Both the position numbers and the translations under genes were made by a program. Below, one piece after another: positions 15,741 through 31,039 of a DNA stretch of 31,055 bases. Numbering within the stretch: position 1 is the first letter of the stretch; the number at the start of each line of letters is the position of its first letter. Below the pieces are notes generated by a model, which was not told where the DNA came from, did no database searches, and worked only from the letters and a program-made list of their open reading frames with translations. Source of the DNA: a virus; IMG/VR virus record IMGVR_UViG_3300017763_002203, positions 1 through 31,055 of that record; one strand, 5' to 3'.

Positions 15741-16110
15741 TGCCGTCGATTATGACCACTTAACAAGAGCGGTCAAGGTTGAAGCAAGACCTAATACCAT
15801 GGATGAGTACTGTGTGGCAGTGTCTATCCTCAATCGTGTTAGATCTCCCTATTACCCTAACACTGTTGCTGATGTAGTATATGCTCCTGGCCAGTATCAA
15901 GGATTTGATTATTGGAGACCTGTTGCTCCCACTACTTTGGTAAATGAATTTAAATCCGAACTTGGTCGTTCTAAACTTCTACAAGCATATGAAATCATTG
16001 GGGATAGGACTGACTTTAAAGGACAAAGAATGTTACCACATCGTGTCGTATCAGAAGATCCAATGTGCGATCAAAAAGGTAACTTCTTTCACTATCACTG
16101 GCAAACATGA
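15712..16110 (+). CDS. Cell wall hydrolase, SleB-like
   Basis: 132 residues, Hydrolase_2/SleB type: LTRAVKVEARPNTMDEYCVA carries the catalytic Glu (E24), followed by VSILNRVRSPYYPNTVADVV and VYAPGQYQGF, then a His/Tyr-rich end (GNFFHYHWQT). This is the normal order of the family, which cleaves peptidoglycan glycan strands. Full-length SleB proteins are larger, but the single catalytic domain is this size. The start overlaps the nuclease gene by 29 bases. No signal peptide is obvious, so export would need a holin or virion packaging. Role in lysis or entry is inferred. Confidence 0.85.
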   Translation: MILETILALSAVDYDHLTRAVKVEARPNTMDEYCVAVSILNRVRSPYYPNTVADVVYAPGQYQGFDYWRPVAPTTLVNEFKSELGRSKLLQAYEIIGDRTDFKGQRMLPHRVVSEDPMCDQKGNFFHYHWQT

Positions 16111-16421
16111 CCTATCCAGCACCAATGATATGTCCCTATGATGAATGGTTTAGTGAACCTATTATGACAGAAACACAAATGGAGTATATGAAATTGTATA
16201 GTGTTCGAGAAGAAGATGATATTGTTGTCAACATGGATGGTGGGGTTGGTGGTTCTTGGGGTGTAAGTAAAGAACCAGAGAACATTCATCAGTTGATGTA
16301 TGATATATCCACAGAGAGTGCATCAATCACTCTTCAATTGGACCCTCTACCACCACTTGGTGGTGGTTCCGAGACATTCCAAGAGGGCTATTGGCAGTCG
16401 GGAATAGGTCTGTTAAATTAG
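16107..16421 (+). CDS. Hypothetical protein with VNMDGGVG motif
   Basis: 104 residues, unknown function, coupled to the hydrolase by a four-base overlap. Residues 38-51 read DIVVNMDGGVGGSW, almost identical to residues 62-75 of the 94-residue protein at 561-845; the rest of the two proteins is unlike. The N-terminus is Pro/aromatic-rich (PAPMICPYDEWFSEP) and the C-terminus Gly/Pro-rich. It is the last gene before the tRNA region. Confidence 0.72.
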   Translation: MTYPAPMICPYDEWFSEPIMTETQMEYMKLYSVREEDDIVVNMDGGVGGSWGVSKEPENIHQLMYDISTESASITLQLDPLPPLGGGSETFQEGYWQSGIGLLN

Positions 16422-16489: not shown

Positions 16490-16493
16490 TCTT

Positions 16494-16567
16494 GGGTCAG
16501 TAGCTCAGTGGAATAGAGCCACGCACTTCTAATGCGTTGGTCGGGGGTTCGAATCCCTCCTGACCCG
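16494..16567 (+). tRNA. tRNA-Arg (UCU)
   Basis: Full cloverleaf: acceptor GGGTCAG / CTGACCC perfect, D arm GCTC / GAGC, anticodon stem ACGCA / TGCGT with loop CTTCTAA (anticodon TCT at 16528-16530), T loop TTCGAAT. Discriminator G; no encoded CCA. It reads AGA, a codon favoured by AT-rich phage genes. Confidence 0.97.
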
Positions 16568-16572
16568 TTCAA

Positions 16573-16645
16573 TCCTCTATAGCTCAGTTGGTAGAGCAGG
16601 TGACTGTTAATCACCCTGTCCCTGGTTCGAGTCCAGGTGGAGGAG
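16573..16645 (+). tRNA. tRNA-Asn (GUU)
   Basis: Acceptor TCCTCTA / TGGAGGA (one G-U), D arm GCTC / GAGC, anticodon stem GGTGA / TCACC with loop CTGTTAA (anticodon GTT at 16606-16608), perfect T stem CCTGG / CCAGG. Discriminator G; CCA not encoded. Five bases separate it from tRNA-Arg. Confidence 0.97.
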
Positions 16646-16647
16646 TT

Positions 16648-16728
16648 AGGAACTTGAGACGTTCCAACCAAAGGTGCCACTAATACTTGGTGGAATTAAC
16701 CCCCTTTGGATGTTCAGGAAGGGTTCCT
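16648..16728 (+). other. Structured RNA spacer with competing helices
   Basis: GGAAC-TTGAGAC-GTTCC (16649-16665) forms a local hairpin with the same TGAGAC loop as the one at 16425. CCAAAGG (16668-16674) pairs with CCTTTGG (16703-16709) around an inner CCAC / GTGG. AGGAAC (16648-16653) can alternatively pair with GTTCCT (16723-16728), enclosing the whole element and breaking the first hairpin. No tRNA, known riboswitch or ORF is recognised here. Confidence 0.5.
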
Positions 16729-16753
16729 GTCCTACTTCATTATAAACTGTCAG

Positions 16754-16794
16754 TATACTGGGTGTGACGCCCATATAGCATACGGATAAGTATA
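16754..16794 (+). other. Nested hairpin in tRNA spacer
   Basis: TATACT (16754-16759) and AGTATA (16789-16794) enclose a tight hairpin GGGTG-TGA-CGCCC (16760-16772). It sits seven bases ahead of tRNA-Thr. A processing or insulating element is possible; nothing else is seen in the 16729-16800 stretch. Confidence 0.4.
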
Positions 16795-16800
16795 GTGTAT

Positions 16801-16872
16801 GCCTCCGTAGCTCAGTGGTAGAGCAGGGCTTTTGTAAAGCTCAGGTCGCAAGTTCAAATCTTGTCAGAGGCT
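16801..16872 (+). tRNA. tRNA-Thr (UGU)
   Basis: Acceptor GCCTCCG / CAGAGGC with a single C-A mismatch at the sixth pair, D arm GCTC / GAGC, anticodon stem GGGCT / AGCTC with loop TTTGTAA (anticodon TGT at 16833-16835), T stem GCAAG / CTTGT and loop TTCAAAT. Discriminator T; CCA not encoded. The acceptor mismatch is unusual but leaves a plausible functional tRNA. Confidence 0.93.
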
Positions 16873-16932
16873 TCGGGTTAATCCCGAATTTCCCTTCCGT
16901 GTGAAGAGGTCTGGGGAGTGTTATCACTCCCC
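16872..16932 (+). terminator. Two hairpins between tRNA-Thr and talC
   Basis: TTCGGG / CCCGAA (16872-16888, loop TTAAT) directly touches tRNA-Thr. GGGGAGTG / CACTCCCC (16913-16932, loop TTAT) is a perfect eight-pair stem. Neither has a strong T tract, so they may serve as RNA 3' ends or processing barriers rather than classic terminators. They separate the tRNA unit from the late promoter at 16942. Confidence 0.5.
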
Positions 16933-16941
16933 ACCACTTGC

Positions 16942-16949
16942 TATAAATA
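16942..16949 (+). promoter_or_regulatory. T4-type late promoter for talC
   Basis: Perfect TATAAATA octamer 28 bases before the talC ATG at 16978, immediately after the hairpin at 16913-16932. It may transcribe talC, def, tRNA-Val, the antitoxin-like gene and the last two tRNAs up to the hairpin at 18536. Confidence 0.8.
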
Positions 16950-16977
16950 TTACTCATCTATTCAGTTCCAAGTTTCA

Positions 16978-17646
16978 ATGAAAATCTTTTTAGATACTGC
17001 TGATACAGGTATCATTCGTCAGTGTTATAATACTGGTTTGATTGATGGAGTCACTACTAATCCTACTCTCATCATGAAGAGTGGTAAAAGTCCTGTTGAT
17101 GTCTACGAGACAATCAAAGATATTGGCATCAAAGATATCAGTATGGAAGTCGTAGGTGACTTTAATGAGATGGTAAAGGAGGGTCAGAGACTCTATAATC
17201 GTTTTGGTTCTGTAGCTACCATTAAAGTACCTTGTACTGAAGATGGTTTGATGGCTTGTAATTACCTTTCTAAAGAGGGTATCAATGTGAATGTCACACT
17301 GATCTTCTCAGCGGCTCAGGCAATCTTAGCAGCTAAGGCTGGAGCTAAGTATGTCTCTCCTTTCATAGGTAGATTGGATGATCAATCCGTCGCTGGTCTT
17401 GAAGTAGTCAGGTCTATTTCTGAGTTGTATCGTATTCATGGTATGAAAACTCAGGTTCTGTCAGCTTCAATTCGTAGTGTTCAGAGGGTTGTTAGGTCTT
17501 ATTATAATGGAGCTCAGGTAGTGACAATGCCTCCTGAAATCTTTAAGAAAATGTATGATCATATACTAACTGATAAAGGTCTTGAGATCTTTGATAAAGA
17601 TTGGGCAGAAGTTACTCATAGGGTATCTCAACCAGATGAAGAGTAA
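16978..17646 (+). CDS. talC: Transaldolase, TalC/FSA type
   Basis: 222 residues from ATG 16978; the frame is open up to 16918 but that would run through the late promoter and a hairpin. TIM-barrel aldolase signatures are clear: FLDTADT (D6), GVTTNPTL (24-31), the Schiff-base Lys K83 in TIKVPCT, NVTLIFS (105-111) and YVSPFIGRLDD (125-135). It is the short TalC/MipB form typical of cyanophages, an auxiliary metabolic gene that pushes host carbon through the pentose phosphate pathway to make NADPH and ribose for nucleotides. It fits with nrdAB upstream. Confidence 0.96.
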   Translation: MKIFLDTADTGIIRQCYNTGLIDGVTTNPTLIMKSGKSPVDVYETIKDIGIKDISMEVVGDFNEMVKEGQRLYNRFGSVATIKVPCTEDGLMACNYLSKEGINVNVTLIFSAAQAILAAKAGAKYVSPFIGRLDDQSVAGLEVVRSISELYRIHGMKTQVLSASIRSVQRVVRSYYNGAQVVTMPPEIFKKMYDHILTDKGLEIFDKDWAEVTHRVSQPDEE

Positions 17647-18077
17647 TGATTTTAGAGATACTAAAAGATGGTGATGAGATACTAAGAAAAGAATCTTGTC
17701 CTGTTATTCTGACTGATGAGGTTAGAAAGTTAATCGAAGATATGAAAGAAACTATGATTCATGCTGATGGTATGGGTCTATCAGCTCCTCAAGTTGGTAA
17801 GAATATCAGAGTGATTGTTGTTAAACTTTTGGATAATAAAACCCAAGAAATGATTAATCCTGTTATTAAGTGGCATTCCATAAACACTTGTAATCTTCAG
17901 GAAGGTTGTCTCAGCATTCCTGGTATGTACTTTGATTTGACTAGACCAATAAAGATATCAGTCAAGTTTCAAGATTTGAGCGGTAAGTATAAAAAGTGGA
18001 AACTCAAATCATGGGAATCTCGTGTTGTTCAACATGAGATTGATCATCTAAATGGTGTGTTGATGACAGACTACTAG
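17646..18077 (+). CDS. def: Peptide deformylase
   Basis: 143 residues. All three motifs of the metalloenzyme are present: G42-MGLSAPQV-G51, EGCLS (86-90, metal ligand C88) and H130-E131-IDH134. It lacks a long C-terminal tail, as known for cyanophage deformylases. Those have been studied for removing formyl groups from nascent proteins such as photosystem II D1, keeping photosynthesis going in infection. The ATG shares one base with the talC stop. The final base of its TAG stop is nucleotide 1 of tRNA-Val, so RNase P cutting would split the stop codon. Confidence 0.96.
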   Translation: MILEILKDGDEILRKESCPVILTDEVRKLIEDMKETMIHADGMGLSAPQVGKNIRVIVVKLLDNKTQEMINPVIKWHSINTCNLQEGCLSIPGMYFDLTRPIKISVKFQDLSGKYKKWKLKSWESRVVQHEIDHLNGVLMTDY

Positions 18078-18148
18078 GGAGATTAGCTCAGAGGTAGAGC
18101 ACCTCGTTTACACCGAGATTGTCACAAGTTCGATCCTTGTATCTCCCA
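18077..18148 (+). tRNA. tRNA-Val (UAC), overlapping def stop
   Basis: Perfect acceptor GGGAGAT / ATCTCCC, D arm GCTC / GAGC, anticodon stem CCTCG / CGAGA (outer C-A mismatch) with loop TTTACAC (anticodon TAC), T stem ACAAG / CTTGT. Discriminator A; no encoded CCA. Nucleotide 1 is the G of the def stop codon TAG. Confidence 0.95.
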
Positions 18149-18157
18149 TCACAGAAG

Positions 18158-18175
18158 TTATCTCAGTTTAGATAA
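18158..18175 (+). promoter_or_regulatory. Palindrome before antitoxin-like gene
   Basis: TTATCT-CAGTTT-AGATAA, a perfect six-base inverted repeat between tRNA-Val and the Phd-like ORF, 36 bases before its ATG. Phd/YefM antitoxins bind palindromic operators near their own start, so this is a candidate operator; it could equally be an RNA spacer hairpin. Confidence 0.35.
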
Positions 18176-18210
18176 TCTGAAGTATGATTCTTTTATACAT
18201 ATAATCAACT

Positions 18211-18384
18211 ATGAAATTTTATTCAGTGAAATACTGGCAAGAGAATTGGGAAACTCTTATGGAAAGAGTTGAAAATGGAGAGACAATAGGTATAGAGAAT
18301 GACAAAGGGGAAAAGGCAGTGATGGTTCCGGCGGATGATGAACTCATACGCATATACACAGAACAGAACAATGAAGGATCCTGA
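18211..18384 (+). CDS. Phd/YefM-like orphan antitoxin
   Basis: A 57-residue protein. The N-terminal pattern (KFYSVKYWQENWETLMERV, then ENGETIGIEND, then KGEKAVMVPADDELIRIYTE) follows the Phd/YefM fold closely. In this fold a beta strand and a helix are followed by xRVENGExixI, a turn, and xAVxVPxDE. The long C-terminal toxin-binding tail of classical family members is nearly absent. No Doc, YoeB or RelE-type toxin gene lies beside it; both flanks are tRNAs. The stop TGA directly abuts tRNA-Ile. There is no clear ribosome site. It might repress transcription, or neutralise a host toxin in the way T4 Dmd does (inference). Confidence 0.72.
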   Translation: MKFYSVKYWQENWETLMERVENGETIGIENDKGEKAVMVPADDELIRIYTEQNNEGS

Positions 18385-18456
18385 GGGACTGTCGCATATT
18401 GGTTAATGCTCGCTCCTTATAAGGGCGCAAACTGGGTTCAATTCTCAGCAGTCCTA
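18385..18456 (+). tRNA. tRNA-Ile (UAU)
   Basis: Acceptor GGGACTG / CAGTCCT (terminal G-U), D arm GCAT / ATGC, anticodon stem CGCTC / GGGCG with loop CTTATAA (anticodon TAT), T stem CTGGG / CTCAG with loop TTCAATT. Discriminator A. Bacteria normally read AUA with a CAU tRNA modified to lysidine, so a UAU anticodon is uncommon. Confidence 0.85.
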
Positions 18457-18460
18457 CCTT

Positions 18461-18533
18461 GGGGGTTTAGCAATCTGGTGAATGCAGCAAACTCATAATT
18501 TGCCTAAGGTGAGTTCGATCCTCACAATCCCTA
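18461..18533 (+). tRNA. tRNA with CAU anticodon (Met or Ile2)
   Basis: Acceptor GGGGGTT / AATCCCT (G-U at the first and fifth pairs), D arm GCAA / ATGC (one mismatch), anticodon stem GCAAA / TTTGC with loop CTCATAA, T stem GTGAG / CTCAC. It lacks the GGG/CCC anticodon-stem pairs of initiators, so elongator Met or lysidine-Ile is meant; sequence alone does not decide. Confidence 0.88.
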
Positions 18534-18535
18534 TT

Positions 18536-19735: not shown

Positions 19736-20782
19736 ATGAGTGAATATACAAAAACCGCACTGGTTCTCGGTGCGGGTGGTTTTATTGGTAGTCACATGGT
19801 CAAACGTCTCCGTGATGAGGGGTATTGGGTCCGTGGTGTCGATTTAAAACGCCCTGAGTTTTCCTCTTCAGAATCTCATGAGTTCATCCTCGGTGATCTT
19901 CGTGAAGTAGATTTTGTTCGCCGTGCTCTTCAATTCAGGGGATATCGTGGAAACTTCTACAATAGTGTTCCCGATAAACTGATTGAATCCTTTGATGAGA
20001 TCTACCAGTTCGCTGCTGATATGGGTGGTGCTGGTTTCGTATTCACTGGTGAGAATGATGCAGATATTATGCACAACTCAGTGACAATCAATCTGAATGT
20101 TTTAGAAGAACAACGTAAGTTAAATGAGAAGGTTGAGTTAAATAAGACTAAGATTTTCTATTCTGGATCAGCGTGTATGTATCCAGAACACAATCAACTT
20201 GACCCAAACAACCCAGACTGTCGTGAAGAATCAGCATATCCAGCAAACCCAGATTCGGAATATGGATGGGAGAAACTCTTTTCTGAACGTTTATATTTCG
20301 CTTACAATCGCAACCACGGCATTCCTGTTAGGGTGGCTCGCTATCACAACATCTTCGGTCCTGAAGGTACCTGGGACGGTGGAAGAGAGAAAGCACCAGC
20401 TGCAATCTGCCGTAAGGTCTGTTACCTCCCGGAGGTCGGTGGAGCTATCGAGGTGTGGGGAGATGGCTTACAAACTCGTTCCTTCCTGTTCATTGACGAA
20501 TGCATTGAAGCGACTCGACGACTGATGGATAGTGACTTCATGGGTCCTGTTAATATTGGATCTGAAGAGATGGTTACTATTAATCAACTAGTAGAGACAA
20601 CTGCTAAAGTTTCTGGTAAAGTTGTTAAGAAGATGTATAAACTGGATGCTCCTCTGGGTGTTCGTGGTCGTAACTCCAACAATGACCTTATTCAAGAGAA
20701 ACTTGACTGGAATTATAGTCAAACCCTTGAAGAGGGTATCCGTAAAACATACGAATGGATTCAAAAACAAATTAACTCATGA
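19736..20782 (+). CDS. GDP-mannose 3,5-epimerase-like SDR enzyme
   Basis: 348 residues, extended SDR fold with NAD-binding LVLGAGGFIGSH (residues 9-20). AADMGGAGF and SGSACMYPE match GDP-mannose 3,5-epimerase. C147, Y176, K180 and K219 (in GGREKAPAA) keep exactly the spacing of the plant enzyme's C145, Y174, K178 and K217. Such enzymes convert GDP-mannose to GDP-L-galactose or GDP-L-gulose. First gene of the cassette, right behind the TTGACA promoter; it would supply an unusual activated sugar for the downstream transferases. Product identity is inferred. Confidence 0.88.
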   Translation: MSEYTKTALVLGAGGFIGSHMVKRLRDEGYWVRGVDLKRPEFSSSESHEFILGDLREVDFVRRALQFRGYRGNFYNSVPDKLIESFDEIYQFAADMGGAGFVFTGENDADIMHNSVTINLNVLEEQRKLNEKVELNKTKIFYSGSACMYPEHNQLDPNNPDCREESAYPANPDSEYGWEKLFSERLYFAYNRNHGIPVRVARYHNIFGPEGTWDGGREKAPAAICRKVCYLPEVGGAIEVWGDGLQTRSFLFIDECIEATRRLMDSDFMGPVNIGSEEMVTINQLVETTAKVSGKVVKKMYKLDAPLGVRGRNSNNDLIQEKLDWNYSQTLEEGIRKTYEWIQKQINS

Positions 20783-21366
20783 AAATAAAAGACGTTATAC
20801 TCCAGAACAATCTGGAGTTTTCCGGTGGTGGAACCGATAAAAACTCTACACATTGTTATGTTGATTACTTCTATGAGGAAGCATTTGAACCATACAGGGA
20901 TAAGAAAGTCTCAGTCCTAGAGATTGGAATCAGTGGGGGATATTCACTGAGACTTTGGAGAGAGTATTTCAAAAACGCTAAGACTATTGTCGGTATTGAT
21001 AATAGACCTGAGGTAGTTGAACAGGTTAATAGGTCGATTCCAGGTGTGGAATATCACTTTGGTGATGCGTATACACAGGAAATGGTAGACAAACTTCCTA
21101 AGTTTGATATCATCATAGATGATGGTAATCACTGGACAGATCATCAAATAAAGGCTATGGAACTTTACTTACCACTACTTAAAAAGGGTGGTCTTTATGT
21201 TATTGAAGACATTCAACATGGATGGCCTTTGGAAGGACACATCAAAGATCCTTATGGAATGCTTAAATCGGCTCTCCCTGAAGAGTACACCTATGTCTTC
21301 CATGACTTGAGGGATGTTAGTGGAAGATTCGATGACTCTATGATGGCAATTAGACACGTTGAATGA
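20779..21366 (+). CDS. SAM-dependent methyltransferase, class I
   Basis: 195 residues. Motif I is VSVLEIGISGGYSLRLW (residues 45-61); FDIIIDDGNHWTDHQ and LLKKGGLYVIEDI supply motifs II and III. This set is typical of MycE/MycF-like sugar O-methyltransferases and the Methyltransferase_24 group. Coupled to the epimerase by ATGA. A likely role is O-methylation of the sugar made by the cassette. Confidence 0.8.
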   Translation: MKIKDVILQNNLEFSGGGTDKNSTHCYVDYFYEEAFEPYRDKKVSVLEIGISGGYSLRLWREYFKNAKTIVGIDNRPEVVEQVNRSIPGVEYHFGDAYTQEMVDKLPKFDIIIDDGNHWTDHQIKAMELYLPLLKKGGLYVIEDIQHGWPLEGHIKDPYGMLKSALPEEYTYVFHDLRDVSGRFDDSMMAIRHVE

Positions 21367-21402
21367 AACTATCTAAAAAGATTTAATTAACTGAGGATTA
21401 TC

Positions 21403-22113
21403 ATGGCTATTACACATACACAAATTAAAAACTTGATGGGATCAAGGGAAAAGGTCATCATCTTTGAGGTTGGATGTGCAGATGGTAGGGACACTAAGAC
21501 TTTCTTGAACACTTTTGGTGAGGAGTTGACCATTTATAGTTTTGACCCAGAACCTATCAATATTCGTGCTCTTACTGAACTTGGACAAACTGATGCCATG
21601 GGTGGCAATAACGATCAACTCGTGACTGATAAGAGGCACATCTTCCATCCTTATGCGATGTGTGATCATAAAGGAACTCTTACCTTTAATAGGTCTAGGG
21701 ATGTAGGTTGGCCAGACGGTGGTGAGAATATTGGTAGATACTCTGGTTCAATTCACCGACCAGTCACTCATTTGCAGAGTGATAAATATGGTAGCCGATG
21801 GCCGAAGACTGTTTTTGAGGAAACTGTAGAGACAGAATGTACCTCTATTGATATCTTTTGTGAAGAGAATGGTATTGATCATATTGATTTTCTTTGGATG
21901 GATACTCAAGGAGCTGAAAGAGAAGTCCTTAAAGGTTCTCAAAGAATGATTTCCAACATTGACTATGTCTATACAGAGTATTATGATGAGGAGATGTATG
22001 AAGGTTGTGCAGGTCTTGCGGAAATCCAATCACTTCTTCCCAACTATGTTCTTGAGCATAACTGGAGATGTGGTGACGCCGACGGTGGTGACGTTTTGTT
22101 AAAAGGAGTATGA
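21403..22113 (+). CDS. FkbM-family methyltransferase
   Basis: 236 residues. SAM site VIIFEVGCADGRDTKTF near residues 18-34, then SIDIFCEENGIDHIDFLWMD and TQGAEREVLKG, the hallmark end of the FkbM family. These enzymes O-methylate sugars in capsules, exopolysaccharides and antibiotics. The 36-base gap before it is the largest inside the cassette and holds a GAGG ribosome site. Two distinct methyltransferases suggest a doubly methylated or end-capped glycan. Confidence 0.88.
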   Translation: MAITHTQIKNLMGSREKVIIFEVGCADGRDTKTFLNTFGEELTIYSFDPEPINIRALTELGQTDAMGGNNDQLVTDKRHIFHPYAMCDHKGTLTFNRSRDVGWPDGGENIGRYSGSIHRPVTHLQSDKYGSRWPKTVFEETVETECTSIDIFCEENGIDHIDFLWMDTQGAEREVLKGSQRMISNIDYVYTEYYDEEMYEGCAGLAEIQSLLPNYVLEHNWRCGDADGGDVLLKGV

Positions 22114-22967
22114 ATATTACAATCCTAGGATCTGCTGGTCAGATCGGTGCTTATCTATCTGAGTACCTAAAAGACAAAGGACATCATGTAAGCAATGTTG
22201 ATATTGTAAATGGTGTTCAATATGATTTGAGAGTGACACCTAACACTGTGGTAGAGAATGCAATTCAGTATGCTGATTTTGTATTCTTTCTTGCTTTTGA
22301 TGTAGGTGGTTCACGTTACTTGAAGAAGTATCAACATACGTTTGACTTTGTCAACAATAATACTCGTATGATGGCGAACACCTTTAAATTACTGAAGAAG
22401 TTCAATAAGAGATTTATCTTCGCTTCTTCTCAAATGAGCAATATGAGTCACTCACCATATGGTGTTGCTAAAAGAATGGGTGAACTTCACACTACAGCAC
22501 TGAAAGGACTAACTGTCAAGTTCTGGAATGTGTATGGTATTGAGAAAGACATGGATAAGGCACATGTGATCACTGACTTTATTCGTAAAGGATTTGAAGA
22601 AAAACAATTTGAGATGATGACAGATGGTACAGAAGAGCGTCAATTCCTCTACGCTGAGGATTGTTGTGAGGCTCTAGAGACCATCATGGAAAACTATACT
22701 GACTTCAAACCAGAAGATCCACTTCACATTACATCATTCCACTCTAATACTGTTAGAGAGATTGCTAATATTATTCAGGGTTGTTTTGGATTAATTGATA
22801 GACATGATGTAAAGATTGACTCTGGACTGGCTAAAGACAGTGTTCAGATGGACAAAAGAAATGAGGCAGACACTTATATTTTAAACTGGTGGGTCCCCAA
22901 GACCACTATTGATGCCGGAATCAGAAAAGTATTTAATGAAATGAAGAAGAGTTATGAAAGTAATTGA
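22110..22967 (+). CDS. NAD-dependent sugar epimerase/dehydratase
   Basis: 285 residues, extended SDR. Rossmann start ITILGSAGQIGAYLSEYL, then DFVFFLAFDVGGS, catalytic YGVAKRMGE (YxxxK, S in FASSQMS upstream) and RQFLYAEDCCEAL. It acts on a nucleotide sugar, with 4,6-dehydration or epimerisation possible; the sequence does not fix which. ATGA overlap with the FkbM gene and 14-base overlap with the GT17 gene downstream. Confidence 0.85.
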   Translation: MNITILGSAGQIGAYLSEYLKDKGHHVSNVDIVNGVQYDLRVTPNTVVENAIQYADFVFFLAFDVGGSRYLKKYQHTFDFVNNNTRMMANTFKLLKKFNKRFIFASSQMSNMSHSPYGVAKRMGELHTTALKGLTVKFWNVYGIEKDMDKAHVITDFIRKGFEEKQFEMMTDGTEERQFLYAEDCCEALETIMENYTDFKPEDPLHITSFHSNTVREIANIIQGCFGLIDRHDVKIDSGLAKDSVQMDKRNEADTYILNWWVPKTTIDAGIRKVFNEMKKSYESN

Positions 22968-23790
22968 CGTATTTCCATTCTTCAATGAACTGGATATCCT
23001 AGAAATAAGGTTGAATGTTCTGGATCCCTATGTTGATTATTTTATCATCAGTGAGGCAACCAAAACCTTCTCTGGGATAGACAAACCTCTCTTCTATAGT
23101 GAGAATAAGGAAAGGTTCTCTAAGTTTAGCCATAAGATTATCCACAACATTGTTGAGGACACAACCTCCTCAGATCTTCATCCATATCAGAGGGATGTAT
23201 TTCAGAAAGACAAGATCAAGGATGTAGTATTGGAAAACTCATCTGAAGATGACATTATTATTTGGAGTGATATTGATGAGGTTCCTAATCCAGAGGCAAT
23301 CAAAGACATAAGAGAATACTTTGAACAGAATGTCATCTTCCATTTTGCTCAAGAGAACTGTATGGGATACTTGAATCTTGTGGAAGTTAGTGGTACAATT
23401 CGTGGTATGACTCCAGACTGGGACTATGGGGATAGACCAAGATGGATGGGTACAAAAGTATTTGGAAGATCTATTCTTGAGAAATATACCCTGTCAGAAC
23501 TCCGTAGCATACAGGAGAAAGAAAAGAACTCCAGAATTTTCCCTGGTGGATGGCACTGGAGTTATGTTGGAAGTGAAGGTCTCTCTGTTGAGGAAAGGGT
23601 ATTGAAGAAAATTGAGTGTGCTGCACACTCAGAACTAAATACCGAACAAATCAAACAGAATGTAGCTGGAGTCAAGGACAATAAGGATCCGTTAGGTAGA
23701 CATTATGCTAACTATCAACCTGTCCCCCTTGATGATTACCCAGAGTATATCTTGAAGAATAAAGACAAATTTGCAGACTTAATTAAATGA
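22954..23790 (+). CDS. Glycosyltransferase family 17-like protein
   Basis: 278 residues. DVFPFFNELDILEIRL at the N-terminus, WSDIDEVP (DxD) near the middle and FPGGWHWSYVG toward the end are characteristic of GT17, the family of beta-1,4-mannosyl-glycoprotein GlcNAc transferases, which also has many bacterial and phage members. The acceptor in a cyanobacterial host is unknown. No transmembrane segment is visible, so it should act in the cytoplasm. Confidence 0.86.
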   Translation: MKVIDVFPFFNELDILEIRLNVLDPYVDYFIISEATKTFSGIDKPLFYSENKERFSKFSHKIIHNIVEDTTSSDLHPYQRDVFQKDKIKDVVLENSSEDDIIIWSDIDEVPNPEAIKDIREYFEQNVIFHFAQENCMGYLNLVEVSGTIRGMTPDWDYGDRPRWMGTKVFGRSILEKYTLSELRSIQEKEKNSRIFPGGWHWSYVGSEGLSVEERVLKKIECAAHSELNTEQIKQNVAGVKDNKDPLGRHYANYQPVPLDDYPEYILKNKDKFADLIK

Positions 23791-24752
23791 TTGTATCTGA
23801 ACTTTATAGTGGTTCTGGACTCGGAAACCAATTGTGGAATCTGGTTGTTCCTAGAATTCTTGCAGAAAAAAATGGTTATGAGTGGGGAGTAAAGAAGTCC
23901 AACCCATTCAAGGCATGTGCCTTCATGACAAACTTCGATTTTGGTAAGGAAGTTGTGGGTGGTTCGGGTCCAGAAGGAGGGCCCCCTGAAACCCTACCAG
24001 AGGGGATTGAAAACTACTACAAGGAACGTGATGAACGTTATCCTCCCTATCTCGGTGGTGAGGAGGTGATGTTTTTTGATGACAATCTGTGGAACAATCT
24101 TTCAGATAATACAAAAGTTGAAGGATGTTTCCAGAAGATGGGATACATCAAGGAGTATCGTGATGATATCATCAAGTGGTTGGACTATGATGAAAAGATT
24201 ACTCAGTATTCTTCTGAAAATATTTGCGTAATTCAGTTCCGGGGTGGTGACTATCTCACTGGTGCATCTTGGCTCCCTCCTGAGTATTATCAGAATGCAG
24301 CAAAACACATGTTAGAGAAGAATCCAAACATGAAGTTTGTTTGTGTTACTGATGATGCAGAGAGTGCAAGGAAGTTCATTCCTTTTGCTGAGGTTGTTGG
24401 TTCTGCAATCATGGAGGAGAAGGATCCATACCAGGGAAGTATTGGGTGGTACAAGTACCCAGGTGGTCCTGTTGGTATTGACTACTCTATCCTCAATACA
24501 TCAAAGAACGCAATCATTTCCGCATCCACTTTTTCTTTCTGGCCTGTTTGGACCAATAAAGAGTGTGATGTTATTGCTCCAAGATATTGGTTCGATTGGA
24601 AAAATTCTAATGGTTGGTGGAGACCTGACGAATCTATCGTTGATGAGTGGTACTGGTTGGATCGTCAAGGTGATTTGATGACAGGAACCGACTGTAAGAT
24701 TGAATATGAGATGTTCAAAGAGTCCAAACAATTCTATAAGCGCACACGATGA
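23787..24752 (+). CDS. Fucosyltransferase-like protein (GT11-type)
   Basis: 321 residues. GLGNQLWNLVV near the N-terminus, VIQFRGGDY (in place of HxRRxDY), FVCVTDDAESARKF and ISASTFSFWPVW match the order of alpha-1,2-fucosyltransferase motifs. The substitution of the HVRR block (QFRGGDY) marks it as divergent from the clearer GT11 enzyme at 27280. It probably transfers fucose or a related GDP-sugar, which fits the GDP-sugar enzyme at the start of the operon. Confidence 0.78.
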   Translation: MIVSELYSGSGLGNQLWNLVVPRILAEKNGYEWGVKKSNPFKACAFMTNFDFGKEVVGGSGPEGGPPETLPEGIENYYKERDERYPPYLGGEEVMFFDDNLWNNLSDNTKVEGCFQKMGYIKEYRDDIIKWLDYDEKITQYSSENICVIQFRGGDYLTGASWLPPEYYQNAAKHMLEKNPNMKFVCVTDDAESARKFIPFAEVVGSAIMEEKDPYQGSIGWYKYPGGPVGIDYSILNTSKNAIISASTFSFWPVWTNKECDVIAPRYWFDWKNSNGWWRPDESIVDEWYWLDRQGDLMTGTDCKIEYEMFKESKQFYKRTR

Positions 24753-25750
24753 CTATTAAAATTTACACTCTGTCTGACAAGAGACCTGACTTTATTAATC
24801 TTCAGTACGAGACGATCAAGAAACATGTGACTGATGACTTTGAGTACATTGTCATCAACAATGCCGTAGATAGTGTTGAGAGGACTGCAGAGATTGATAG
24901 TATCTGTGAGTCACTTGGGGTTGAATCTCTCAAGGTTATCCTGGATCCATCGATGAGGGTATCTCATGGTGAGGTAAACTTCACAGGTGACCAATATGCA
25001 AATGCCAATCTAGCATGTTCTTATCCCACCCAGTGGGCTTGGATTAACTACATGACTAAACATGATGACCTTGTTATCAACATTGATTCTGACATGTTCC
25101 TCATTAAGGATGTCAGTTTCAAGGAGATGATGGGTAATAATAACTTTGGTATTGTTCATGCGTATAGGGGGAATGATCACAGGGTACATTACCCCTGGAA
25201 TGGTTTCTTTATTGCTGATATTCCCAACATGCCTAATCCTGAAGAGATGGATTGGGGTTGTGGTGAGGTTCTTGGAGAAAGAGTTGACGTTGGTGGACAG
25301 GGTCATCACTATCTTAAGAAGTATCAGAACCAACTAAGGACACTCAATATTGAACAATGGGGCGTCCTTGATGATAGGGGTGATGAAATTGAAGTTAATG
25401 TGAATGGTTGTGCCCAGTTCTTCATCAATCTTGAAGAGATGAGTATCGATGTCAAGAACAGACAAGCTAGTGACCACAATACTTTTGACCATCAATCACC
25501 CAGAGATAATTACTGGGATTACTTCTCTGATAACTTCATTGATATTATCAATGAGACTAACAAAACTGGATTTCCTAAACCAACCTTCGTGGACTTCCTA
25601 AAATTGGAAAAAGATGATACAATAAAGGAGTCTTTTATCTTTCACTACAAAGCTGGTAGTAACTATATGGCATGGGCTAATAGCGTTTACAATTCAAAGA
25701 AGACTGAGGCTTTCACTAAACTATTGAGTGAAGGAGTCTTCAATGATTGA
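24749..25750 (+). CDS. Glycosyltransferase, GT-A type
   Basis: 333 residues. VINIDSDMF contains the acidic DxD-type metal site of GT-A enzymes, set between MTKHDDL and IKDVSFKEM. WNGFFIADIPNMPN and NVNGCAQFFINLEEM follow. I cannot name the family. The gene is coupled by four bases to its neighbours. Confidence 0.7.
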   Translation: MTIKIYTLSDKRPDFINLQYETIKKHVTDDFEYIVINNAVDSVERTAEIDSICESLGVESLKVILDPSMRVSHGEVNFTGDQYANANLACSYPTQWAWINYMTKHDDLVINIDSDMFLIKDVSFKEMMGNNNFGIVHAYRGNDHRVHYPWNGFFIADIPNMPNPEEMDWGCGEVLGERVDVGGQGHHYLKKYQNQLRTLNIEQWGVLDDRGDEIEVNVNGCAQFFINLEEMSIDVKNRQASDHNTFDHQSPRDNYWDYFSDNFIDIINETNKTGFPKPTFVDFLKLEKDDTIKESFIFHYKAGSNYMAWANSVYNSKKTEAFTKLLSEGVFND

Positions 25751-26420
25751 TTTACCTGATGTAACACTTATCTGTGTATCCAGTGTAAATTTTGAACAGA
25801 CCCTGTATGCTTTTCGTAAGAGCATGCAGGGTATTCGTTTTGGTGATGTTAAACTTGTATCAGATCAGGATCGTCCTGACTTTGAAGACGCAGGTATCAC
25901 TGTAGAGAAGTGTTCAAAGATTACTTCTATTGATGAGTATAGTCACTATATGATCTATGATCTACAGAAACATGTAGATACAACTCACTGTATTACTATC
26001 CAGGCTGATGGGTTTATTATTAACCCTGTAAAGTGGGACCCATTATGGCTAGAGTATGACTACATTGGAGCTCCATGGGAACACTCTGATGGGGCATATA
26101 TTGACCCTTGGGGTGGCCACCAAAGAGTTGGTAATGGTGGATTTACCCTCAGGTCAAAGAAATTATTAGAAGTACCACAACATGCCTATGTTCATTTTGA
26201 TGTGAACTGGGGGGACTTCTATAAACATATGGGTGCTAACAATACCGCAGAAGATGGATGTATCTGTGTCCACAACAAACATATATACGAGGTATTAGGT
26301 TGTAAGTTTGCACCTGTTACTGTTGCTGCCAGGTTTGCTCATGAGAAACCTGTACCAGAAACTAGGGGTATCACCCCATTTGGATTCCATTATCATCTCC
26401 CTGCGGGAACTGTTTTATGA
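25743..26420 (+). CDS. DUF5672-like glycosyltransferase-type protein
   Basis: 225 residues from ATG 25743, with AAGGAG six bases upstream; the ATG at 25728 is in frame but lacks such a site. The blocks ITIQADGFIINP, YDYIGAPWEHS, RVGNGGFTLRSK and EDGCICVHNK correspond to the DUF5672 family, often encoded in polysaccharide clusters and thought to be glycosyltransferases. The eight-base overlap with the preceding stop implies coupling. Confidence 0.82.
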   Translation: MIDLPDVTLICVSSVNFEQTLYAFRKSMQGIRFGDVKLVSDQDRPDFEDAGITVEKCSKITSIDEYSHYMIYDLQKHVDTTHCITIQADGFIINPVKWDPLWLEYDYIGAPWEHSDGAYIDPWGGHQRVGNGGFTLRSKKLLEVPQHAYVHFDVNWGDFYKHMGANNTAEDGCICVHNKHIYEVLGCKFAPVTVAARFAHEKPVPETRGITPFGFHYHLPAGTVL

Positions 26421-27283
26421 AGATTATTATCTGGGGACATTACCCCATCCACACGTCCACACATGGATATATTCATGACACATACTTCAAAACCTTTGAA
26501 CACTTGGGTCATGATGTGAAGTGGGTGTCCAATGAATATACACACCACCTTGACTATACTGATACGGTGTTCTTTGTGGAGGATTCACAAAAGTCCAATA
26601 TGCCTCTCAGGAAAGATTGTAAGTATATCACTCATCATATTGATACAAAGTATTTTACTGACAATGGTATACCATATGAGAACGTATTGAAACTTGGTAA
26701 CTGTATTCGTAATACAGTTGATTTTGAGAAAGTAGAAGACCTTTGTCACTGGGATGAATCAACCAGAACTCTCTATCAAACATGGGGAACAGATCTTTTA
26801 CCTCATGAAATTGATGTTGATAACTATGAGAAGTTTGATCCATCAAAGAAAAACATTAACTATGTGGGGATGATGTATGAACAGGGTCCTTATTGGCTTG
26901 AAAACTTTGCATATTATGCAGAAAAAGATGGTAAACAAATTGAACTATATACCCAATCAATCGAACACTCAGATAATCGTAGATTGATTCGTGATTCTTA
27001 TGTCTGTCCAGATTTTAGAAGTGACTGGCATCTTCAGTGTGGTTATATCCCCTGTCGTATTCAAAAAAACATCAGTTATGGTAGAGTTACAGGAACAAAC
27101 TCACCATTCATCAAGGAATCCTTTGGTGATTATGTAGTTTTCGGTGGTACTCCAGAGACTCTCTATAATAACCTTGTCCAGGCAGAGAAGAACGGTAGTA
27201 TTAATATGAGGGAGGCCATGCAGTTCATTAAGGACAAACACACTTATGTTAACCGTGTCAACAACATTTTAAAATTATTATGA
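26417..27283 (+). CDS. Putative GT-B glycosyltransferase
   Basis: 288 residues. The N-terminal KIIIWGHYPIHTSTHGYIHD and HLGHDVKWVSNEY resemble the acceptor-domain start of GT-B enzymes. The C-terminal end (DYVVFGGTPETLYNNLVQAE, then a helix) resembles the donor-domain closing region. No EX7E motif is evident. Assignment relies mainly on general form and on operon context. Confidence 0.6.
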   Translation: MKIIIWGHYPIHTSTHGYIHDTYFKTFEHLGHDVKWVSNEYTHHLDYTDTVFFVEDSQKSNMPLRKDCKYITHHIDTKYFTDNGIPYENVLKLGNCIRNTVDFEKVEDLCHWDESTRTLYQTWGTDLLPHEIDVDNYEKFDPSKKNINYVGMMYEQGPYWLENFAYYAEKDGKQIELYTQSIEHSDNRRLIRDSYVCPDFRSDWHLQCGYIPCRIQKNISYGRVTGTNSPFIKESFGDYVVFGGTPETLYNNLVQAEKNGSINMREAMQFIKDKHTYVNRVNNILKLL

Positions 27284-28071
27284 TTGGTTTTAATCACCTT
27301 GGTATCATTGGAAGACTGGGAAATCAGATGTTCCAATATGCAACTCTTAGAGGTATTGCACACAATAGAGGATATGATTTCACTATCCCTGAAAGTGATT
27401 TCGAAGATGAATGGAATGATCATCAACTATTTGATGTTTTCACGATGCCTCACCTAAAGAACAGGGGTAAAGTTGCTGATAAGTATCTGCAAGAAAAACA
27501 ATTTAACTTTGATCCAGAACTTTTTGATAAATGTCCTGATGACATTAGCCTATATGGTTACTTTCAAACAGAACGATACTTCAATAAAATTGCTGACTCA
27601 ATCCGAGAGGACTTCACATTCAAAGATGATGTGATTGCCAACTGTAAGGAAGTGATGGAAGAGGTTACTGAACCTATTGCTCTTCATGTTCGTAGGACTG
27701 ATTATGTTGAGAAGTCACAAGATCACCCGCCGTGTAGTCTTGAGTACTATCAGGAGGCATTGAGTAAATTTGATGTAAAGAGACCTGTTGTCATCTTCAC
27801 TGATGATATTGAATGGTGTAAGAGTCAAGAGATCTTTCAACCAGATAGGTTTATGGTCTCTGAGACTGAGGATAATGTCTATGATATGTGTATGATGACT
27901 CTTTGTGATGACTATATTATCGCTAATAGTTCATTCTCGTGGTGGGGTGCATGGTTGAGTCGCAACCCAGATCCTAAGGTCATTGCACCTAAGAGATGGT
28001 TCGGTACTAATGGTTATACTGCTTCTAATAATACTGAAGATATTGTTCCCAAAAGATGGACTAAAATATGA
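27280..28071 (+). CDS. Alpha-1,2-fucosyltransferase-like protein (GT11)
   Basis: 263 residues with the full GT11 pattern: GRLGNQMFQYATLRGIAHNR at the N-terminus, HVRRTDYVE in the middle, PVVIFTDDIEWCK and DYIIANSSFSWWGAWLS toward the end. These enzymes use GDP-fucose to add alpha-1,2-fucose to glycans such as O antigens. Coupled to both neighbours by ATGA overlaps. Confidence 0.92.
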   Translation: MIGFNHLGIIGRLGNQMFQYATLRGIAHNRGYDFTIPESDFEDEWNDHQLFDVFTMPHLKNRGKVADKYLQEKQFNFDPELFDKCPDDISLYGYFQTERYFNKIADSIREDFTFKDDVIANCKEVMEEVTEPIALHVRRTDYVEKSQDHPPCSLEYYQEALSKFDVKRPVVIFTDDIEWCKSQEIFQPDRFMVSETEDNVYDMCMMTLCDDYIIANSSFSWWGAWLSRNPDPKVIAPKRWFGTNGYTASNNTEDIVPKRWTKI

Positions 28072-28820
28072 GTCCTACCATTTCAATTGCTATTCCTACA
28101 TATGAGATGAAGGGTTCAGGGTCTCAGTATCTTTATCAGTTATTTGAAAGTATAAAGAATCAGAAGTATAAGAACTTTGAAGTTTGTATCTCTGATCACT
28201 CTCAGAACGATGAAGTATTAAATGTTTGTGGAGAGTTCGCTGATAATTTTAAAATCCAATACTTTAAGAATGAAAAGGACAGAGGTAATGGGCCCTCTAA
28301 TACAAACTCTGTTGTGGAGATGTGTGAGGGTAAGATCACTAAACTTATGTTTCAGGATGATCTCTTTATAGATCCTTGGGCATTGAATTATATCATTAGT
28401 TCCTTTGAAAAGGGACACAGTTGGTGTTTCAATGGTTTTGCACATACTAAGGATGGATTTACCCATGCAAGAATGAAGGTTCCTGAGTGGACTGACATGA
28501 TGTTGGAGGGTAGAAACTTATTAGGTAGTCCATCTTGTGTCTCATTTTTGACTGATAAGTTTGTTAAATTTGATGAAAAGTTGGTTCTTCTTATGGATAC
28601 TGACTTTTACCATAGGATGCGATATAATTATGGAATGCCGTACATTATATCTGATGTCTTGACATCGAATCGGGAACATGACAATCGTGTAAGTTCATCT
28701 AGTGTCCAATATGATACTAGAATTGAACACCCTGAGGGCCCATGGTTAGTAAACAAAGAAGAATTGGATTACGTTTTGGAGAAAAATAAAGACACAAGGG
28801 AGTACCCAGATGAAACATGA
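28068..28820 (+). CDS. Glycosyltransferase family 2-like protein
   Basis: 250 residues. ISIAIPTYEMKGSGSQYLYQ at the N-terminus, ESIKNQKYKNFEVCISDHSQ, NGPSNTNSVVEMCEGKI and MFQDDLF (acidic DD metal site) are classic GT2 blocks. A soluble enzyme without membrane helices. It overlaps the next gene by 11 bases. Confidence 0.86.
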   Translation: MSPTISIAIPTYEMKGSGSQYLYQLFESIKNQKYKNFEVCISDHSQNDEVLNVCGEFADNFKIQYFKNEKDRGNGPSNTNSVVEMCEGKITKLMFQDDLFIDPWALNYIISSFEKGHSWCFNGFAHTKDGFTHARMKVPEWTDMMLEGRNLLGSPSCVSFLTDKFVKFDEKLVLLMDTDFYHRMRYNYGMPYIISDVLTSNREHDNRVSSSSVQYDTRIEHPEGPWLVNKEELDYVLEKNKDTREYPDET

Positions 28821-29646
28821 CTTAACTAAAGCAACTTTTATTATTCCTGTCAGAATTGAGTCAGACGATAGACTTAGGAATGTCATCACTTCAGTTTGTT
28901 ATTTGTTATCAAATTTTGATACTACTATCATTCTTAGAGAGGTTGATGACCGTTCTATATTTGTTGAAGAGGCACTACCTCAGATCATTGAATTTTGTGG
29001 TGATATCAAAGGTCTCATTCATCAGTTTGTATTCTCCGAATCACAAACATTCCATCGTCAGTCTATCCTAAATGACATGATCATGGAGAGTGAAACTGAA
29101 ATTGTGGTCAACTATGATTGTGATATCCTTCTCCCTGTAGAGTCTTATCTAAGTGCATATAACACTATTCTCGACAAAGAATCTGATGTAGTGTATCCAT
29201 ATGGTGATGGTGATTACCAGTATCGTGTTATGGCTGATGATGAACTTGTATCTGAATTCCTGACTGAAGAATTTGATTTTTCTATCCTTAGAAAGAAATC
29301 TACTAAGTATGATGCTAAGTACGGGTTCTGTCAGTTCTTTAATCGCGATGTCTATATTGAAGGTGGGTTGGAGAATGAGAACTTTGTTGCATATGCTCCA
29401 GAAGACGTTGAAAGATTTTACAGGTTTGGTACTCTGGGGTATAATGTTGGAAGGTTGAATTCTATGGTCTATCATCTAGAACATGAGAGGACACCCAACT
29501 CTTGGTTCACTAACCCCCATATGACTGAGAATAATGAAGAGTGGAGTAGAGTCCAGAAGATGGATTCCGAAACACTCCGAGAATATATTACATCCCAAGA
29601 TTATTACAAACAACGTATCAATGGACAGGAACAAGTCAGTTTATAA
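28810..29646 (+). CDS. Glycosyltransferase family 2-like protein
   Basis: 278 residues. ATFIIPVRIESDDRLRNVIT and the acidic block VVNYDCDILLP (DxD) are GT2/GT-A features; QILNDM-type positions are replaced by QSILNDMIMESETEIV. YGFCQFFNRDVYIEGGL and YAPEDVERFYRF resemble the galactosyltransferase-like C-terminal part of the family. It overlaps the GT25 gene by 26 bases. Confidence 0.78.
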   Translation: MKHDLTKATFIIPVRIESDDRLRNVITSVCYLLSNFDTTIILREVDDRSIFVEEALPQIIEFCGDIKGLIHQFVFSESQTFHRQSILNDMIMESETEIVVNYDCDILLPVESYLSAYNTILDKESDVVYPYGDGDYQYRVMADDELVSEFLTEEFDFSILRKKSTKYDAKYGFCQFFNRDVYIEGGLENENFVAYAPEDVERFYRFGTLGYNVGRLNSMVYHLEHERTPNSWFTNPHMTENNEEWSRVQKMDSETLREYITSQDYYKQRINGQEQVSL

Positions 29647-30418
29647 ACTCAAGGGCATTGGACCTATCTATTGTCTTAATCTAGATGGGCAACCAGAGAG
29701 ATGGGAATTCATGGAGAACCAGTTTAAATACTGGGAGATTGAGAATTATACCCGTATCTCTGCTTATGACGGTCGTGAAAGTGACCTAGGAGAGATTCTG
29801 AAGGGTCGTTACCCTGATATGATGAGTTCTGGTGAGGTGGGGTGTGTAACGTCACATCTTAAGGCTCTCCGACATTTCGTGGAGGAGACAGACGATCCCT
29901 ATGCTGTCATCATGGAAGATGATTGTAGTCTCGATCTGGTAAAGTTCTGGAACTTTACATGGAAAGATTTCTATGGTAGGATTCCTTATGATTGGGACGT
30001 TGTCCAAATCGCTATCATCTGTACTGGTGACATCAATATCAAGATCCATAAAAGGTTCGTGAATGAGTTCTCTACAGCTTGTTATCTAATCACTAGACAT
30101 CACGCTATGAAGTTGTTAAGACTTCATACAAGAGGAGACAAGTACAAATTAGACAATGGTGTACGACCAAGACCTGTAGCTGATGATCTCATCTACAACT
30201 CTGGTAACACCTACTCTATCCCACTTCTTCTGTATAAGATTGAATTGGGATCCAGTATTCATCCTGATCATGTTGATGCTTTTCATAAGCATAACTTCAA
30301 TGCACAATTTAACTTCTGGTCTAATACCGGAGCACAGATGACCATTGAGGAACTAATGAACTTTGATCCTTATTTTGGAAGAGTAGTGGAATCCTCCCAT
30401 CAACCAACACAAGGTTGA
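29621..30418 (+). CDS. Glycosyltransferase family 25 (LPS-type)
   Basis: 265 residues from ATG 29621; the frame is open to 29534 but that would overlap the previous gene by over 100 bases. IYCLNLDGQPERWEFMENQF, TRISAYDGR, SSGEVGCVTSHLKALRHFV and PYAVIMEDDCSLD match GT25, the LPS beta-galactosyltransferase/procollagen family, with the EDD metal site intact. STACYLITRHHAMKLL follows in the expected place. Last gene of the cassette; its stop codon lies within the next promoter's -35 box. Confidence 0.9.
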   Translation: MDRNKSVYKLKGIGPIYCLNLDGQPERWEFMENQFKYWEIENYTRISAYDGRESDLGEILKGRYPDMMSSGEVGCVTSHLKALRHFVEETDDPYAVIMEDDCSLDLVKFWNFTWKDFYGRIPYDWDVVQIAIICTGDINIKIHKRFVNEFSTACYLITRHHAMKLLRLHTRGDKYKLDNGVRPRPVADDLIYNSGNTYSIPLLLYKIELGSSIHPDHVDAFHKHNFNAQFNFWSNTGAQMTIEELMNFDPYFGRVVESSHQPTQG

Positions 30419-30443
30419 CGGTTTAGTAACTAATTACTATAAT
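30415..30443 (+). promoter_or_regulatory. Sigma70-type promoter of beta-barrel gene
   Basis: TTGACG (30415-30420), a 17-base spacer and a perfect TATAAT (30438-30443). Initiation near 30450 would give a leader of about 150 bases, unusually long for this phage. The -35 box contains the stop codon of the GT25 gene. Confidence 0.78.
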
Positions 30444-30448
30444 AAATA
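30441..30448 (+). promoter_or_regulatory. Overlapping T4-type late promoter
   Basis: AATAAATA overlaps the -10 box of the sigma70-type promoter. The gene could therefore be read both early and late from nearly the same start site. Confidence 0.6.
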
Positions 30449-30451
30449 ATA

Positions 30452-30484
30452 TTGTGAGACGATAATTCCTCACAAGATTTTTTT
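30452..30484 (+). terminator. 5'-leader hairpin with U tract
   Basis: TTGTGAG / CTCACAA, seven pairs with a ten-base loop, then GA and a long T run (30478-30484). By position it is at the very 5' end of the predicted transcript, so it is either a terminator of the incoming glycan operon or an attenuator of the new one. Confidence 0.65.
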
Positions 30485-30523: not shown

Positions 30524-30539
30524 TATCGTTCAAACAAAC

Positions 30540-30562
30540 AGAGACTAGTCGAGTCTCTTTTC
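30540..30562 (+). terminator. Leader hairpin 3, terminator-like
   Basis: AGAGACT / AGTCTCT, seven perfect pairs with a five-base loop, followed by TTTTC. The second terminator-like structure between promoter and coding start, suggesting attenuation or an independent small RNA ending here. Confidence 0.55.
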
Positions 30563-30565
30563 ATC

Positions 30566-30583
30566 CGTAGGTTAAACTCTACG
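30566..30583 (+). other. Leader hairpin 4
   Basis: CGTAG / CTACG with loop GTTAAACT, 20 bases before the ATG at 30603. It is close enough to affect ribosome access; the site AAGGT lies between it and the start. Confidence 0.45.
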
Positions 30584-30602
30584 AGACAAAAAGGTAAAAC
30601 AA

Positions 30603-30974
30603 ATGTTTAAATCTGTATTCGCAGCAACTGCTGTTCTGTTCACTTCTGCTGGCGCTGCCCTTGCAGGTCCCTACGTTAACGTCGAAACCAATGCTGGTTG
30701 GACTGGATCTGAGTACAACGGTGCAGGAACAGACCTCCACGTAGGATATGAAGGCGCACTGGGTGACGCTGGTTCTTACTACGTTCAGGGCGGTGCTACT
30801 GTACTGACTCCCGATGGTGGTGATGCTGATACCGTTCCTTCCGGTAAGGCAGGTCTGGGTCTTGGTTTGACTGAGAACCTCAGCGGTTATGGTGAAGTAT
30901 CCTTCGTAGGTTCAGGCGACGAAGATCTTGACCGTGGTTATGCAGGTAAGTTGGGCGTCAAGTACAACTTCTGA
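30603..30974 (+). CDS. Secreted outer-membrane beta-barrel-like protein
   Basis: 123 residues. A clear signal peptide (MFKSVFAATAVLFTSAGAALAG, cleavage expected after ALA near residue 21) is followed by alternating Gly/aromatic strands (YVNVETNAGW, DLHVGYEGAL, YYVQGGATVL, KAGLGLGLTENLSGYGEVSF). The C-terminus LGVKYNF ends in Phe, the usual BAM-complex signal of outer-membrane proteins. It is far smaller than a porin, so a small barrel or oligomer is likely. Codon choice is richer in C/G-ending codons than most of the window, as in highly expressed genes. Role unknown; surface alteration or exclusion of other phages is possible (inference). Confidence 0.8.
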   Translation: MFKSVFAATAVLFTSAGAALAGPYVNVETNAGWTGSEYNGAGTDLHVGYEGALGDAGSYYVQGGATVLTPDGGDADTVPSGKAGLGLGLTENLSGYGEVSFVGSGDEDLDRGYAGKLGVKYNF

Positions 30975-31012: not shown

Positions 31013-31039
31013 GGGGGTGCGACGGCATCCCCTTTTTTT
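31013..31039 (+). terminator. Strong rho-independent terminator
   Basis: GGGGGTGC / GCATCCCC (one G-U), loop GACG and a T7 run. It ends the beta-barrel transcript. The remaining 16 bases of the window hold nothing recognisable. Confidence 0.92.

Follow-up and report, generated by a model that had tools for sequence, protein, structure and literature searches.

We report a small gene of T4-like marine cyanophages together with a structured RNA that precedes it, both seen in a 31,055-nucleotide stretch of viral DNA (IMG/VR record IMGVR_UViG_3300017763_002203, positions 1 to 31,055; here called the window). The protein is a new member, in an uncultivated contig, of an already known, unexplained family, Phage_OMP. 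The leader RNA upstream of the gene is conserved in structure and linked one-to-one with it across phage genomes; it is the new part of the finding and appears to be previously undescribed. On balance we lean, with some reserve, towards an explanation in which a separately transcribed and leader-boosted gene supplies an exported outer-membrane protein that changes the host envelope, most plausibly in phosphate stress. The features of the locus are collected in Table 1.

Table 1. Features of the Phage_OMP locus in the window.
Feature	Position	Strand	Basis
Sigma70-type promoter TTGACG-17-TATAAT, 11/12 consensus positions	30415..30443	+	Sequence motif
Late-promoter-like AATAAATA, overlapping the -10 box	30441..30448	+	Match to published cyanomyovirus late promoter NATAAATA
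Hairpin TTGTGAG..CTCACAA followed by T run, just after the promoter	30452..30484	+	Sequence
Conserved structured leader RNA, two hairpins	30538..30590	+	Covariance model and covariation
Leader hairpin P1, AGAGAC-UAGUCGA-GUCUCU	30540..30558	+	Sequence; compensatory changes in 5/5 modelled pairs
Leader hairpin P2, CGUAG(G)...CUACG, after invariant CAUC	30566..30583	+	Sequence; two-sided changes in 4/6 pairs
Ribosome-binding-site-like AAAAAGG, 8 nt before ATG	30588..30594	+	Sequence
Phage_OMP (PF24653) gene, 123 aa	30603..30974	+	ORF; PF24653 and phrog_417 profile matches
Signal peptide MFKSVFAATAVLFTSAGAALA, predicted cleavage before GPYV	30603..30665	+	Pattern, kept in 215/217 relatives
Mature part, 102 aa, six predicted antiparallel strands, terminal Phe	30666..30971	+	AlphaFold2 models
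Intrinsic terminator of the gene, 8-pair stem then T run	31013..31039	+	Sequence

The reading frame, which runs from ATG to TGA, matches the Pfam family PF24653 (Cyanophage outer membrane protein like beta barrel domain) over its full length, residues 1–123 aligning with profile positions 1–122 (E 8.8e-47; 158.8 bits against a cut-off of 27), and likewise matches phrog_417 in PHROGs (E 4.2e-50), where the function is given as unknown. PF24653, Phage_OMP, phrog_417, T4-GC241 (the name in phage record notes), ‘DUF680’ (the name in phage annotations) and PhCOG173 are synonyms for one family. No Pfam family named DUF680 matched at E-values up to 10, the only families listed being PF24653 and OMP_b-brl (PF13505), the latter below its cut-off (12 bits against 28.7; E 0.23), and a sequence search of the PDB with the window protein gave nothing significant. 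The gene has been known since at least 2010 and was found in 15 of 16 T4-like cyanophages (PMC3037559). We found a family member in 476 phage records, all of cyanophages or marine phages and none outside cyanophages, and no homologue in 14 control genomes; PhCOG173 was likewise reported to have no homologues in the host strains used in an evolution study (PMC6224464). The closest relatives of the window protein are 80–98% identical to it, and the dN/dS ratio against relatives (about 0.07–0.2) indicates purifying selection, so the ORF is not a chance one. In signal, length, terminal Phe, hosts and genome neighbourhoods the protein shows no difference of substance from the rest of the family. 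Among 84,980 species, in a search that sees close relatives only, just three phage-like MAG contigs matched (L082, L083 and L084, labelled Rhodobacteraceae, Lewinella and Dehalococcoidia). A host origin of the protein was considered on the strength of these matches and rejected: the neighbours in L082 are cyanophage-like (GT11, GT25, hli), and all three contigs are probably mis-binned phage DNA. There is also a second, less acidic PF24653 subfamily (KHEFKG/KSEFKG type), which lies beside the acidic copy, in many cases ahead of pstS, and comes without a leader (L085 6523–6894, L086 5506–5862, L041 3597–3950).

The gene has a sigma70-type promoter, a late promoter and a terminator of its own, so it probably runs as a separate transcription unit, to judge from these motifs one whose activity begins in early or middle infection and continues into the late phase. 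The late element corresponds to the published cyanomyovirus motif (PMC2984593), and a composite TTGAC..ATAAATA arrangement recurs in 37 of 98 non-redundant leader-bearing upstream regions, against 0.1 in shuffles. The hairpin just downstream of the promoter may be the terminator of the glycan operon or a hairpin at the 5′ end of the transcript; seven T follow it, and at this place relatives, too, form strong hairpins, which are unrelated to it (mean z -2.0). Control by a Pho box was considered for the window and rejected, there being no CTTAN7CTTA upstream of the gene, and the 206 family upstream regions show no excess of this motif (1 observed against 1.05 expected). The prediction of Pho boxes for phage genes has been called unreliable (PMC10976474).

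The leader RNA was first noticed in the upstream regions of relatives, as a pair of hairpins whose two arms change in step. A covariance model built from 16 sequences scores 61.9 bits at the leader and no more than 9.4 bits elsewhere in the window; over the model searches the leader scores 61.9–62.9 bits and the next best hit 8.7–9.4. The window's own sequence was among the 16, so its score does not count as independent evidence by itself, whereas the genome-wide linkage described below does. In an alignment of 74 sequences fitted to the model, 98.8% of cells are paired, and 9 of the 11 pairs vary on both sides. Covariation scores 0.743, compared with 0.237 in shuffles (0 of 500 reach the observed value) and at most 0.092 when the structure is slid along the alignment, and the hand-set alignment (16 sequences) agrees. 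A reading of the element on the opposite strand was rejected, since its many G-U pairs (P2 is closed by G-U in 53 of 60 cells) would become A-C mismatches. From the conserved structure and the compensatory changes in the 5′ UTR, we assign the leader to a structured cis-regulatory class with a putative effect on expression.

The linkage between leader and gene is close. With a wider covariance model, 17 of the 23 whole records (P-HM1 being counted twice) yielded exactly one element, which in every case directly precedes the PF24653 gene, and no phage genome has the leader more than once; Syn9, P-SSM2, P-SSM4, P-TIM68, S-ShM2 and P-HM1 all lay outside the training set. S-PM2 has neither the gene nor the leader. 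Among loci outside the training set the leader stands at the same place in 85 of 97, several of the remaining loci ending at contig edges. When contigs were picked by the RNA pattern alone, the gene was present in 80 of 80 and began 12–23 nt after the leader; overall the leader stands 11–23 nt before the start of the gene. The gene does occur without a leader in podoviruses, in ACG-2014f and in a freshwater contig, as do second gene copies. No Rfam 15 covariance model matched at the leader, either in the window end at E-values up to 10 or in ten further loci at up to 1. Several cyanophage RNAs are named in the literature, namely CfrI, PhotoRC-II, wcaG, manA and glnA (PMC9964418, PMC2864571), and in the open literature, to which the search was confined, the leader is not among them.

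The leader would most likely stabilise the mRNA or control its translation, with the result that much protein is made. That it is instead a ligand- or protein-sensing switch is a tentative second choice, which we consider possible but less probable. The single-stranded CAUC is invariant and the GUCG loop nearly so, both of which would fit a sensing element. Furthermore, the Prochlorococcus-type leaders (L088, L098, L101 and others) carry an extra conserved block upstream of P1, GGAcUCGAAAGAUCGUaACCCUGyG, and it is possible from the sequence that this block pairs with the 5′ arm of P2 to form an alternative structure. The competing pairing is, however, nearly invariant, so that covariation is silent on it either way, and the element precedes one gene only, unlike most riboswitches.

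The initial annotation had placed the gene next to a glycan cassette and read the two as a coordinated remodelling of the host surface. The position holds: in the window the gene borders a run of glycosyltransferases (19736–30418) whose last gene is a GT25 (PF01755). The coordination is not supported: as a general rule it is rejected on the counts of neighbours in 197 loci and on the separate promoter and terminator motifs of the gene. Many of these loci are short, so the counts are lower bounds: GT25 lies upstream in only 45, and the downstream neighbours include hli (65), nrdC (51), td (30) and pstS (13). In the nearest relative (L001, protein 98% identical) the gene is followed by a short ORF, a high-light-inducible-type ORF and ferredoxin. 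S-SM2 has GT25, two Phage_OMP copies, pstS and phoA, and S-B05 is similar; in S-ShM2, P-HM1 and S-SSM5 the gene sits in the nrdC-td-phoH region, and in T7-like phages (podoviruses) it lies beside psbA and hli. The glycan cassette is thus one of several neighbours. Elsewhere in the window, six tRNA genes (Arg, Asn, Thr, Val, Ile, Met) surround talC and a peptide-deformylase-like ORF at 16493–18534, and two otherwise different small ORFs (561–845 and 16107–16421) share the peptide DIVVNMDGGVG(S/G)SW.

These neighbourhoods bear on the proposal that the protein serves superinfection exclusion or receptor masking, coating or blocking the outer membrane in concert with glycans made by the phage and thereby preventing the adsorption of other phages. 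We regard this as unlikely. Its attractions are a predicted fold that may be of OmpX/Ail-like class, the place of the gene at the GT25 end of the cassette in the window and in the 45 loci, and the proposal that the LPS genes of P-SSM2 prevent further infection (PMC2984593). Most copies, however, lie far from glycan genes and in phages that have no cassette, the gene is framed by a separate promoter and terminator, and published selection removed it in one host (PMC6224464).

Turning to the protein, most of what the initial annotation had read from the sequence is borne out across the family. The cleavable signal peptide it had proposed is present as a Sec-type pattern, with K3, a hydrophobic core and A-L-A before G (ALA|GPYV); an AxA-type site stands at the expected position in 215 of 217 family members, and K or R near the N-terminus in all 217. 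The terminal Phe is likewise a family trait, F or W ending 214 of the 217 proteins, and F123 is invariant among 87 diverse members, as are A21, V25, G48, G64 and G84. The mature part, put at about 100 residues, comes to 102; it is glycine-rich (24 Gly, with 8 Tyr and no Cys) and has a net charge of -10 (family median -9). The codon use, described as that of a highly expressed gene, is indeed distinctive: 18 of 27 two-fold pyrimidine codons (67%) end in C where the other window genes would predict 34% (z about 3.6); this is the highest share among all 45 genes of the window, and the codon-usage distance from the other 44 was matched in 8 of 2000 simulations. High expression is thus backed by codon use and promoter. 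Strands of outer-membrane type had also been suggested, and the alternation of hydrophobicity over the predicted strands exceeds that of strand shuffles (10 of 5000 reach it). As for the central claim of a phage-encoded, exported beta protein of outer-membrane type, the Pfam family is so named and two predicted folds lean the same way.

The first of these, an AlphaFold2 model of the window protein based on 87 sequences, has six antiparallel strands (residues 22–34, 37–53, 57–70, 76–88, 93–102 and 112–121), the blocks of the mature part mostly at pLDDT 82–91 and one at 72. The second, of a member 36% identical, has the same topology with mature blocks at pLDDT 87–94. Foldseek ranks a minimal transmembrane beta-barrel, OmpA and OmpX first among the PDB matches of model 1 (probability 1.00; E-values 0.007–0.04); such E-values for outer-membrane barrels are weak, the best in the PDB being 0.007 and others reaching 0.4. 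A structural aligner places OmpX first (Z 9.8; rmsd 4.0 over 119), followed by Ail (Z 9.2) and OprF (Z 9.0). Of the three predicted outward loops, two are 28–30% D/E and the first 12%, and the turns alternating with them are short. The best reading of the models is a fold of outer-membrane type, although the six predicted strands fall below the usual minimum of eight in small outer-membrane barrels. That low count is one reason to weigh a soluble periplasmic barrel, avidin- or lipocalin-like, in place of a membrane protein; the other is that avidins appear among the weaker Foldseek matches of model 2 (E above 0.1) and that avidin-type structures also match model 1 (Z about 6.3). We think this distinctly improbable: the top structural matches are outer-membrane barrels, and the invariant terminal Phe, the amphipathic strands and the alternation of short turns with longer acidic loops speak against it. 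A virion component, such as a minor tail or capsid-associated protein, is very improbable, for although two peptides (25% coverage) of the S-SZBM1 homologue, which we confirmed as a true family member, were detected in purified virions (PMC9146016), PhCOG173 was absent from S-TIM4 particles and called non-structural (PMC6224464), a conserved cleavable export signal would be unusual for a virion protein, and S-PM2 lacks the gene entirely.

We therefore return to the host envelope. Phage_OMP is most likely an abundantly made host-envelope protein, the product of an auxiliary gene that would be transcribed alone from the combined sigma70 and late promoter. The protein would be exported by Sec and its signal peptide removed, and the mature part would most likely enter the outer membrane of the infected cell as a beta-sheet or barrel of very small size, its acidic loops facing outwards. 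The envelope so altered would benefit the phage during infection, most plausibly under nutrient, that is phosphate, stress. Nutrient stress is favoured by the neighbourhood of pstS and phoA, although pstS lies beside the gene in only a minority of loci, and by the published loss in replete medium: essentially every phage evolved in Synechococcus WH8102 with replete medium carried a mutated PhCOG173, the gene often being broken, and a role in phosphate limitation was suggested (PMC6224464). A phosphate-selective pore as such was considered, and the strongly negative mature part makes it less likely, the missing Pho box weighing in the same direction. A bolder version, in which a six-stranded outer-membrane beta protein closes or oligomerises in an unusual way and the leader is an undescribed class dedicated to one gene across T4-like cyanophages, seems to us rather doubtful.

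Almost every T4-like cyanophage carries the gene, and these phages rank among the most abundant marine viruses. The leader, conserved with the gene and missing where the gene is missing, as in S-PM2, offers a handle on the timing and strength of production of the protein and opens the effect of the phage on the host outer membrane to direct test. A truly six-stranded fold would also bear on how small an outer-membrane barrel can be.

Both parts of the locus have known counterparts. OmpX, Ail and the OmpA transmembrane domain share with the predicted Phage_OMP fold an up-and-down antiparallel beta sheet, a signal peptide, a terminal Phe, and long outer and short inner turns; they have eight strands and about 150 residues, whereas Phage_OMP has six predicted strands and about 102 residues, with no significant match in sequence. 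The wcaG, manA, PhotoRC-II and glnA RNAs are, like the leader described here, structured 5′ leaders before auxiliary genes in cyanophage genomes, but no Rfam 15 model fits the new leader, and it stands before one gene family only. Highly expressed messages can carry stabilising stem-loops at their 5′ ends, as does that of ompA in E. coli. The Phage_OMP leader resembles these in placing hairpins in the 5′ UTR of a presumably abundant outer-membrane protein message; it differs in that its loop and the CAUC are also conserved, and its stabilising effect is putative.
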